A stretch of 41,469 nt of DNA, taken from the NCBI GenBank assembly GCA_025060245.1, contig JANXCP010000004.1:1-41469 (forward strand), in the 5' to 3' direction. Positions 1 through 5,035 of the stretch are shown piece by piece. The translations under genes were made by a program, and so were the position numbers. Positions within the stretch are counted from its first letter, which is position 1. Every line of letters starts with the position of its first letter. The notes under the pieces are model-generated. The model did not search any database and was not told the DNA's origin. It worked only from the letters and a program-made list of their open reading frames with translations. This DNA comes from Thermoanaerobaculum sp. (lineage in GTDB: Bacteria > Acidobacteriota > Thermoanaerobaculia > Thermoanaerobaculales > Thermoanaerobaculaceae).

Positions 1-498
1 GCCGGTGGCAGTGGTGATCAAGGCTTCAGAAATACCCGCGGCTACCGCCCCGGGGTTGGATAGACCCGCCTGGGCCAAGGTGGCAAAGGACTTGATCATG
101 CCGGTAACCGTCCCCAAAAAGCCCATCATGGGAGAGATGTTGGCCGAGGTGGCGAGCACCATGAGCCCCCGCTCCAGCCGAGCGCTTTCAAAAACCGCTG
201 CCGACTCAATGTTCTTCTCAATGTCCTCTTTTGGATGACCGTAACGCGCCAGAGCAGCCTTGACCACCGAGGCCACCGGTCCCTGATACTCCTCGCAAAC
301 CTTCATGGCGCCCCGCACATCCCGGTTCACCAGCAACGCCTTGCGGACCTTGGAGAGAAACTCGTTGACGTTCACCTTGGCCTTGCGCAGTGCCAACCCA
401 CGCTCCACAATAAAGGTGGCCGTCAGCAACGAAAAGACCAAAAGAGGCCACATCACAATGCCGCCTTGTTGAAAATAAAGCACGAGATCTCCGAACAC
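1..498 (-). CDS. MotA/TolQ/ExbB proton channel family protein (3' end beyond window)
   Basis: Minus-strand translation from GTG at 498 preceded by AGGAGG: VFGDLVLYFQQGGIVMWPLLVFSLLTATFIVERGLALRKAKVN...ERGLMVLATSANISPMMGFLGTVTGMIKSFATLAQAGLSNPGAVAAGISEALITTAT; hallmark ExbB/TolQ core. Confidence 0.88.
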   Translation of the reverse strand, partial: MFGDLVLYFQQGGIVMWPLLVFSLLTATFIVERGLALRKAKVNVNEFLSKVRKALLVNRDVRGAMKVCEEYQGPVASVVKAALARYGHPKEDIEKNIESAAVFESARLERGLMVLATSANISPMMGFLGTVTGMIKSFATLAQAGLSNPGAVAAGISEALITTATG

Positions 499-1914: not shown

Positions 1915-1996
1915 CTACAACCACGGCGTTCCCTTGACGTGACCGCCAGCTGTGGGGGACAATGATCCCAGTTGGAGCGAGAGGTGGGATGGTCCC

Positions 1997-4735
1997 ATGA
2001 AACCAACAGTCCTCCTCGTTGATTACGAGCCCCGTAACGCCACCCGGTACGCCGCCGCTCTAGCCTCCCTGGGAGTTGAGTTCCTCTCCGCCACCGATGT
2101 GGATGGGGCCGTCGCGCACTGCAGCAAGGTGGAACCCTCCCTGGTTCTGCTGACCTCCGTGCTGCCCCGCGTGAAAGTGGAGGATGCTATTACCCAGTTG
2201 CGCGCGCGCGCCGGTCTGCGCTCCACCCCCTTTGTGGTGTTGATGAGCGGGTACAACGGTAGGGATACGAGGGCCGACGCCGAACGCCTAGGGGCGCAAG
2301 ATATTCTCCCAAAGCCCTTTTCCGATCAGCAACTACGGGATTGCGTGCGCTTTTGGCTAGAAAGCAGTGCGCGCGGTGCCAGCCTGTCGGAAAAAACCAA
2401 AGTGGAGATCTTGGAAGCCCTCAAGCAACAGGGTGCCCAGGGCGGGGGGATCACCTCCCAAGAGCTGTTTGGCGATCTTCTGGAAGAAGAGGGGCCTAGC
2501 CCCGCGGACACCCAACGGATTCGCGTGGAGCCGAAAGCACCGGTGGTGAAGAAAGTGCCGTCACCAGAGGCCACCGCTCCCCAGCCACCTTCCACCCCAG
2601 CCGTCCCGGCCCAGCCCGCTTCGCCGCCGCGCCAGGTTCCAGCTCCCAAGGGGGTGGTGGAGGATGTGGAGCGGGTATTGGAGGCTACCATCGCCGACGT
2701 CCTCAAAGGCGAGGAGAAGCGGCAAAAACCGGTTGAGGATACCGGGACCAAACGGGTGGAAGAGCTCTTGTCCCAAACCCTCTCGGGGCTCGAGGTCCCG
2801 GTCAAACCCAAACCCGCGGCCCCCCCCAAGCCTCCCACCTCCCCGGCTCCACCCACCCCGACGGCACGGCCCCAGCCTCCGCAGGTGGAGACCCCGACCC
2901 CTCCCGCCACCACTGGCACCGCCTTCGGCCAGTACGAGCTTATCGCCCACATAGCCACCGGAGGTATGGCGGAGGTCTATAAAGCGCGGATGAAAGGGCT
3001 GGAAGGGTTCCAAAAGATCGTGGCCATCAAGCGCATCCTCCCCCACCTCACCGACAACGATGAGTTCGTCACCATGTTTGTGGACGAGGCCAAACTGGCC
3101 GCCCAGCTCCAACACCCCAACATCATCCATATCTACGACCTCGGGAAGATTGACCGGTCTTACTACATTGCCATGGAGTACATTGACGGCCTGGACCTGC
3201 GCTCCATCCTGATGCGGCTCCAGGCCAAAGGACAGCGCTTCCCATTGCCCCTCGCCCTCTACGTGGGTGCACGCCTCGCCGATGCCTTGGATTACGCCCA
3301 CCGAAAGCGGGATTTTAAAGGTCAAGCCATGGCGCTGGTGCACCGCGACGTTTCCCCGCAAAACGTGTTGATCTCCTACGAAGGGGAAATCAAGCTGTGC
3401 GATTTCGGCATTGCCAAAGCCGCTTCCAAGGCCTCCCACACCCGCGCCGGCGCGCTCAAGGGCAAACTGCAGTACATGTCCCCGGAGCAGGCTTGGGGCA
3501 AAGACCTGGATCACCGTTCGGACATCTTTTCCTTGGGCTTGGTGCTGTACGAAATGGTGGTAGGTCGCAAGGCTTTCAGCGGGGACTCGGAGCTATCCAT
3601 CCTGGAGCAGGTGCGCAGTCCCCGCCTCACCCCACCGCGGGAGCTCGATCCCACGATTCCCCCGGAGGTGGAACAAATCCTTCTGAAAGCCCTGAAGGAA
3701 AAACGCGAGGAGCGCTACCAGTCGGCCGCCGACATGGCGCAAGATCTGGAAGCGGCCATGCGCGCTTTTGAGCCAGCGCCCAGCGCCGCTCAGCTTGCCG
3801 CCTTCGTCTGCGACCTGGAGGGGCGCGAGCGCCCCGCCTTGGCCACCGAAGCAGCGACCGTGCGCATCCCGACGCCGGCGCCGACCCCGCGACCAGCGGA
3901 AGCTCCGCCGGTCCCCGAAGCCAAGCCAGCCCCGCGGCCGGCTCCCGCACCTGCGCCCATTCCCGAGTTGAAGCCCGCGGTCCCTCAACGTCGGGCACCC
4001 TCGCCTTTGGTGTGGGCGGTCCCCTTGGGTTTGCTTTTCGCCGCGGCAGGGTACTGGTTGTTCACCCAGCGGCAACAGGCCCCGCCTGCGCCGCTGGCAC
4101 CCCCAATCCCCGCGGAACAGGTGGCACAGGCAACACCTGCACCCCTAGGGGAGCAACCCATGGCCTCCGAGCAGGAGCCGGTACCCACTCCCATCCCCCA
4201 GCCTGCGTTGGCCACCCCTGTGGTACAGGAAATCCCAACCCCCGCTCCGGTCACTCGGCCCACGGCGGCTCCCACACCGGCGCCCACCAGAGCCCCCGTG
4301 GCGGTCCCCACCTCCCCCCCGGCAGTGGCACCTCCCCCGGTGGCCGCCGAACCCGAGCCAACCCCTGAACCCACAGCCACGCCGCGACCCTCCCCGACTC
4401 CAGCACCGGTGGTGGCCCAGGTTCCAGGGCCCACGGTGAAGGAAGGTGATTTTGTGGAGGTTCCGGACGTGTGGCCCGAGGCCATCGTCATGCCCAAACC
4501 TGCCTACCCGCCTTTGGCGGCACGGCAACGCCAAGGGGGCACGGTGATTTTGCGCGTGCTTGTGGATGAAAATGGCATCGTGCGGGATGTTCAGGTAGCC
4601 CGGGGGATTCGCCCGGATTTAGGTCTTGACGCGGCCGCAGTGGCAGCGGTAAAGAACTGGCGGTACCGACCCGCCACTAAAGACGGGGTTAGAGTGAAGA
4701 CTTGGTTTACGCAACCCATCCAGTTTAGGCCCTAG
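1997..4735 (+). CDS. Serine/threonine protein kinase with N-terminal degenerate receiver domain, TM segment, Pro-rich linker and C-terminal TonB domain
   Basis: REC-like MKPTVLLVDYEPRN...LVLLTSVLP...LPKPF; kinase GGMAEVYKA, VAIKRI, VHRDVSPQNVL, DFGIAKA; TM SPLVWAVPLGLLFAAAGYWLF; TonB_C PAYPPLAARQRQGGTVILRVLVDENGIVRDVQV...AVKNWRYRPA. ORF opens at 1952; 1997 ATG preferred. Confidence 0.9.
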   Translation: MKPTVLLVDYEPRNATRYAAALASLGVEFLSATDVDGAVAHCSKVEPSLVLLTSVLPRVKVEDAITQLRARAGLRSTPFVVLMSGYNGRDTRADAERLGAQDILPKPFSDQQLRDCVRFWLESSARGASLSEKTKVEILEALKQQGAQGGGITSQELFGDLLEEEGPSPADTQRIRVEPKAPVVKKVPSPEATAPQPPSTPAVPAQPASPPRQVPAPKGVVEDVERVLEATIADVLKGEEKRQKPVEDTGTKRVEELLSQTLSGLEVPVKPKPAAPPKPPTSPAPPTPTARPQPPQVETPTPPATTGTAFGQYELIAHIATGGMAEVYKARMKGLEGFQKIVAIKRILPHLTDNDEFVTMFVDEAKLAAQLQHPNIIHIYDLGKIDRSYYIAMEYIDGLDLRSILMRLQAKGQRFPLPLALYVGARLADALDYAHRKRDFKGQAMALVHRDVSPQNVLISYEGEIKLCDFGIAKAASKASHTRAGALKGKLQYMSPEQAWGKDLDHRSDIFSLGLVLYEMVVGRKAFSGDSELSILEQVRSPRLTPPRELDPTIPPEVEQILLKALKEKREERYQSAADMAQDLEAAMRAFEPAPSAAQLAAFVCDLEGRERPALATEAATVRIPTPAPTPRPAEAPPVPEAKPAPRPAPAPAPIPELKPAVPQRRAPSPLVWAVPLGLLFAAAGYWLFTQRQQAPPAPLAPPIPAEQVAQATPAPLGEQPMASEQEPVPTPIPQPALATPVVQEIPTPAPVTRPTAAPTPAPTRAPVAVPTSPPAVAPPPVAAEPEPTPEPTATPRPSPTPAPVVAQVPGPTVKEGDFVEVPDVWPEAIVMPKPAYPPLAARQRQGGTVILRVLVDENGIVRDVQVARGIRPDLGLDAAAVAAVKNWRYRPATKDGVRVKTWFTQPIQFRP

Positions 4736-4753: not shown

Positions 4754-4978
4754 ATGCCGGTTTTGACGGAACAACAGCGTAAGTTTTACGAGGAAACCCT
4801 AAAGGTAACCAAGCAAGAGATCCAAGACTTGGAAAACCAAATTCAGGAAGAGCTCCAGCGGGTGAAGCAACGCATTGCCGAACTGCAGGCGGCGCAAAAA
4901 GCGGCCCGGCAAATGTACGACGCGGCCTGCCAGCGTCTCGGGATTCCCAACGACCTCGAGGAAAGCCCGGCGGCCTAA
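4754..4978 (+). CDS. Small coiled-coil protein of unknown function (74 aa)
   Basis: AAGGAGGAACGACCATG; heptad-like EEL/QRVKQRIAELQAAQKAARQ; followed by hairpin. Confidence 0.7.
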   Translation: MPVLTEQQRKFYEETLKVTKQEIQDLENQIQEELQRVKQRIAELQAAQKAARQMYDAACQRLGIPNDLEESPAA

Positions 4979-5016
4979 CTTGGGCAAAACCCCCATTGCG
5001 GGGGTTTTTGCTCAAG
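4979..5016 (+). terminator. Probable Rho-independent-type hairpin
   Basis: CTTGGGCAAAACCCCC-ATTGC-GGGGGTTTTTGCTCAAG inverted repeat immediately after the 74-aa ORF stop. Confidence 0.65.
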
Positions 5017-5035
5017 TTTCGGGTAAGCTTGCACT

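Follow-up and report, generated by a model that had tools for sequence, protein, structure and literature searches.

What does a receiver domain that has lost its phosphorylation site do on the same chain as a Ser/Thr kinase and a TonB domain? The question is raised by one gene in the window, by which we mean the whole stretch of Thermoanaerobaculum sp. DNA that was analysed (41,469 nucleotides). The features on which an answer depends are the following:

1-498, minus strand: exbB/tolQ-like gene, 5' part, at the contig edge
1997-4735, plus strand: REC-Pkinase-TM-TonB_C protein, 912 aa, ATG start; frame open from GTG 1952
1997-2380, plus strand: pseudo-receiver domain, residues ~1-128 (T53 at the acceptor position, D9-Y10, S84, K106)
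2453-2479, plus strand: conserved linker motif TSQELFGDL, about residues 153-161
2753-2788, plus strand: linker helix with the conserved motif ELLSQTLSGL, about residues 253-264
2933-3721, plus strand: Hanks-type Ser/Thr kinase domain (VAIK, HRDVSPQN, DFG and SPE all found)
4004-4066, plus strand: single predicted transmembrane (TM) helix, residues 670-690 (M1 numbering), no His
4067-4477, plus strand: Pro/Ala/Thr-rich periplasmic stalk, predicted disordered
4493-4729, plus strand: TonB C-terminal domain (PF03544)
4754-4978, plus strand: 74-aa coiled-coil protein, conserved partner gene directly 3' of the kinase gene
4977-5018, plus strand: strong, terminator-like RNA hairpin with a U-tract (-27.4 kcal/mol, z -5.6, by folding)

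One uninterrupted open frame runs from 1952 to 4735 on the plus strand. ATG 1997, from which the original prediction also counted, is the start kept in relatives, which share the N-terminus M-x-x-x-ILL-x-D/E-Y-E-P-R. The Pfam coordinates were counted from GTG 1952, and subtracting 15 converts them to the numbering with M1 at ATG 1997. Matches were obtained for Response_reg at 20-132 (E-value = 1e-10; 7.5e-12 alone), for Pkinase (PF00069) at 328-590 (E-value = 7.5e-40) and for TonB_C at 848-926 (E-value = 4e-20), all exceeding the Pfam cut-offs, and nothing else that matters was detected in the 912-aa protein. When the whole protein is modelled with AlphaFold2, the receiver (REC), the kinase, the TM helix and TonB_C come out ordered, and the linkers between them disordered. 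The TM segment, the Pro/Ala/Thr-rich linker and the C-terminal TonB domain that had been read from the letters were all recovered in this way, and the triple fusion is confirmed.

The receiver had been called dead, with Thr at the acceptor position, a D-Y pair and the Lys kept, and the structural comparison bears this out. Whether the receiver is aligned to PleD or modelled with AlphaFold2, Thr53, and no Asp, falls at the acceptor position, where strand beta-3 ends. The active site is made up of D9-Y10-T53-S84-K106 in place of the canonical pentad (D/E-D/E, acceptor D, S/T, K), with Tyr10 replacing the second metal-binding acid, Ser84 as the switch residue and Lys106 retained. The receiver model (residues 1-165; pLDDT 94-98 for residues 1-120) resembles canonical receivers in Foldseek, such as PhoP (1mvo, TMt 0.84) and CheY4 (4hnr, TMt 0.86). 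As a control, the same alignment procedure was applied to the other receivers of the genome: the acceptor Asp is kept in 29/29 and the full pentad in 28, the 29th sequence ending before the Lys. The TonB-fused receiver is the only one among the 30 aligned that lacks the acceptor Asp, and the structure model together with this control rules out an Asp masked by misalignment. A further REC-Ser/Thr kinase fusion of 462 aa is encoded on contig C197 (26144-27361, minus strand; L010/L223), and its receiver active site is intact (DDDSK), which makes it a helpful protein for comparison.

Loss of the active site extends to the whole family. Among 95 distinct orthologs the full receiver pentad occurs in none, and Tyr replaces the second acid in 72. 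At the acceptor position the 95 kinase-bearing orthologs carry S (37), T (30), N (10), R (6), A (4), D (3), Y (2), C (1), G (1) and E (1), column assignment being unsure for some very divergent N-terminal regions. Across the host order the alpha-3 segment DAITQLRARAGLR hardly varies, and its persistence despite loss of the catalytic pentad suggests a binding surface, which supports the docking or allosteric role proposed for the receiver at the outset. Alpha-3 and its adjoining loops are also among the regions named for study in pseudo-receivers in a 2025 perspective (PMC12632262).

Concerning the kinase, the Gly-rich loop, VAIK Lys, alphaC Glu, HRD, DFG and (A/S)PE are all present, as expected of a Hanks kinase. 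The catalytic motifs are invariant among 26 orthologs, in agreement with its first description as intact-looking, and the activation segment GIAKAASKASHTRAGALKGKLQYMSPEQAWGK is conserved almost letter for letter. The closest solved structures are PknB, PknA and StkP, which are membrane-anchored kinases. Membership in the PASTA (PknB/Stk1) kinases was considered and rejected: the NF033483 model scored 294.8 bits against a cut-off of 450, with the match confined to the kinase part, and no PASTA repeats were found in the 912-aa protein by the Pfam scan.

The most constant neighbour of the gene is a small one. The coiled-coil ORF starts 18 bases past the kinase stop and is preceded by the ribosome-binding sequence AAGGAGG; an automatic terminator scan gave chance-level hits only, the hairpin 3' of this ORF having been found by folding. 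In 98/100 distinct loci whose flank is long enough, the next gene downstream, on the same strand, is a homologue of ~75 aa (median gap 30 bp), and other neighbours are much less constant (accD 62/96, ruvC 54/88 and exbB 26/83 loci). The wider neighbourhood was discarded as a functional clue, since accD, folC, yebC and ruvC have housekeeping roles and are not the same from lineage to lineage. Among 396 genomes over the phylum, the coiled-coil gene occurs in 106 of the 114 that are kinase-positive, an association whose Fisher p ignores relatedness. The protein itself gave no Pfam match above cut-off, and its PDB matches were keratin coiled coils only. Where the coiled coil occurs without the kinase, the gene upstream encodes REC-TM-TonB_C (families f55, f60, f66, f87 and f28) or, in family f43, TM-TonB_C with neither REC nor kinase; at four f60 loci (L195, L200, L204 and L207) no REC, kinase or TonB_C match was found in the frame beside the coiled-coil gene. 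Because it is kept with kinase-less or REC-less neighbours, the coiled coil is a better marker of the unit than any one domain.

Two motifs in the linker between receiver and kinase, TSx[DE][LI]F[GSA][DE] (also given as TSxDLFGD) and LLSxTLSGL, recur through the phylum, the corresponding peptides in the window protein being TSQELFGDLL and VEELLSQTLSGL. The first is found even in forms without TonB_C (L166 and L171) and in one kinase-less form (L198). These motifs are candidate binding sites for the coiled-coil protein.

The reading that we favour, with roughly an even chance of being correct, is that of a bitopic inner-membrane Ser/Thr-kinase sensor with a non-phosphorelay receiver as its regulatory or docking module. 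The cytoplasmic half would consist of the pseudo-receiver, the flexible motif-bearing linker and an active Hanks kinase, and the periplasmic half of the Pro-rich stalk ending in the TonB-type C-terminal domain. TonB_C would most likely contact a periplasmic or outer-membrane partner, either a TonB-box protein or peptidoglycan; the 10 TonB-dependent receptor plugs encoded in the genome are candidate outer partners. We infer that signalling would run inward, with the state of TonB_C, set by its putative ligand, passing through the TM helix to kinase dimerisation or activity. The pseudo-receiver would not be phosphorylated by histidine kinases and would act as a docking or autoregulatory module, probably via the conserved alpha-3 surface, with the co-encoded ~75-aa coiled-coil protein.

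An alternative that we regard as possible but unlikely gives the acceptor position itself a role. The receiver would have switched from Asp to Ser/Thr phosphorylation, the residue replacing the acceptor Asp (Thr53) being phosphorylated by the Hanks kinase of the same chain with no phosphorelay, and kinase-less lineages would have fixed a phosphomimetic Glu. Ser, Thr or Tyr stands at the acceptor position in 69 of the 95 distinct kinase-bearing orthologs (73%), compared with 12% for the three residues together among all aspartate-less receivers (PMC4395418), a baseline drawn from another sample. Thr is found in 28/32 members from the host order, and phosphorylation of Ser/Thr at such acceptor positions was speculated on in the same survey (PMC4395418). 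This bias means that the receiver may be regulated at the acceptor residue rather than simply be dead. Additionally, all nine kinase-less REC-TM-TonB_C relatives examined (L194, L197, L201, L205, L209, L199, L193, L196 and L198), from at least two lineages, carry Glu there. A tree of REC, TonB_C and coiled coil with the acceptor column left out rejects the kinase-less group as a single clade (p-AU 8e-8) and requires at least two changes for Glu and three for kinase presence. However, Glu occurs in the kinase-bearing L164 as well, which is nested in the larger kinase-less group on this tree, and the Glu state amounts to two events only. Moreover, such a switch cannot hold for the whole family, since some kinase-bearing members have N, R, A, C or G at the acceptor and the kinase tree calls for 15 shifts between hydroxyl and other states. 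It is the most interesting testable version of the mechanism.

It is improbable that the receiver is a structural relic or a plain scaffold with no regulatory role. It is very degenerate in some clades and was not detected in the f43 gene beside the coiled coil, as a relic might be, but it has been kept over phylum-level divergence, and the near-invariance of alpha-3 within the order argues against this view.

The TonB end of the protein bears on a further alternative. TonB_C matches solved TonB C-terminal domains significantly, and in the manner of GltG an adjacent ExbB-ExbD motor could drive it, with the kinase and the receiver regulating force transmission from the cytoplasm. A candidate motor is encoded next door: yebC-ruvC-exbB-exbD-exbD-tonB-DUF4388-TPR runs divergently from the kinase gene and is intact in a species of the same genus (L067), and the exbB-exbD-exbD-tonB cluster adjoins the kinase gene in 25-26 loci. 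In the present genome it is divided, with the start of exbB on the contig of the window (C153, window positions 1-498) and exbD-exbD-tonB-DUF4388 on contig C69; as exbB is cut at the edge and the cluster continues on C69, these contigs probably adjoin each other in the genome. Precedent comes from Myxococcus xanthus, where GltG (FHA-TM-TonB) binds AglR (PMC3169522). TonB energy transducers, however, use a His in the TM anchor for ExbB coupling. No ortholog has a His in this helix, and it is present in three separate TonB/TolA-like proteins elsewhere in the genome. The neighbouring cluster also carries its own His-bearing TonB, and exbB is adjacent in only 26 of the 83 loci with enough flank. 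TonB-type ExbB coupling of the fusion protein is therefore unlikely, it was set aside as the main reading, and we consider a motor-driven transducer quite improbable.

The kinase sensor that we favour is not the only protein of this genome to end in TonB_C. On contig C197 (L004:49-1722) a degenerate kinase, with HRD changed to HGF and DFG to GFG, is followed by a TM helix, a Pro-rich stalk and TonB_C, and contig C127 (L003:1498-2391, minus strand) encodes a DUF4388-TM-TonB_C fusion. Another DUF4388 protein, not part of this fusion, is encoded next to the exbB-exbD-exbD-tonB cluster. Counting the window protein, TonB_C is used in three fusions of one genome as the outer, periplasmic end of cytoplasmic signalling proteins.

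The fusion is distributed well beyond the window. The family HMM matches 108/149 genomes of the class (60/70 genera; E-value 1e-80 or better) and 114/396 genomes sampled over the phylum (E-value 1e-110 or better); both counts are lower bounds, given the two different thresholds and a few cut contigs, and a genome matched by the HMM need not encode all three domains. The triple fusion also occurs in other Acidobacteriota classes. Among 38 diverse members scanned with Pfam, Pkinase was found in 38, TonB_C in 29 and a detectable receiver in 27. TonB_C is absent from family f39 and some other lineages that keep the kinase and the coiled coil, and the kinase is absent from several lineages that keep REC-TonB_C and the coiled coil, so each of the two, kinase output and TonB_C sensing, is dispensable to the unit. 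Separate genes joined by an assembly or annotation error, as a draft genome of 2.35 Mb in 208 contigs might suggest, have practically no probability, for 30/31 genomes of the host order, assembled independently, have the identical single-frame fusion, and it recurs through the class, where homologues are likewise one gene. That frequency, with the sole Asp-less receiver among the 30 aligned, also shows that the fusion is not due to chance.

The original prediction was right in its observation, which proves more general than it claimed, and neither of the two results that it had named as refuting was obtained. Its interpretation is supported in part, the coupling of the kinase to TonB partners being putative. 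To it are added the coiled-coil partner, the two linker motifs, the exbB-exbD-exbD-tonB cluster next to the gene and the preference for Ser/Thr at the acceptor position. REC-kinase-TonB with its coiled coil is an old, conserved, phylum-level unit made of known domains and apparently undescribed: the architecture was not found in the open-access literature searched, and TonB is not mentioned in the main text of the 2015 survey (PMC4395418) or the 2025 perspective (PMC12632262) on such receivers. Of the proteins already described, the nearest analogue is GltG/PglI of M. xanthus (FHA-TM-TonB; PMC3169522, PMC5349195), which likewise combines a cytoplasmic signalling domain, a single TM helix and a periplasmic TonB_C, with an ExbB/TolQ-type motor in the picture. 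It carries FHA, whereas the Pfam scan of the window protein gave REC and kinase and no FHA; and GltG is part of a gliding machine, whereas the window protein has a TM helix without His and no Glt genes were noted among its neighbours. PknB/Stk1-type kinases share the cytoplasmic Hanks kinase, the single TM helix and an extracytoplasmic part, but carry PASTA where the window protein has TonB_C on a Pro-rich stalk, together with an N-terminal pseudo-receiver. Canonical TonB/TolA transducers share the PF03544 domain and the Pro-rich stalk; in the window protein the TM helix, devoid of His, is internal and follows a large cytoplasmic signalling part. Finally, aspartate-less receivers have the same fold without the acceptor Asp, Ser/Thr being a known class of substitution (PMC4395418, PMC12632262), and they are enriched with Ser-Thr kinase/phosphatase modules (PMC4395418). 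The present one differs in being fused to a Hanks kinase and TonB_C and in forming one orthologous lineage kept across the phylum. For pseudo-receivers in general the mode of switching is an open question (PMC12632262), and we infer for this one a TonB_C-sensed kinase that the pseudo-receiver would regulate with its coiled-coil partner. In this phylum-wide lineage a pseudo-receiver is tied to one defined kinase, one small partner protein and one periplasmic TonB domain, so that one protein and a few mutants are enough to put the question to the test.
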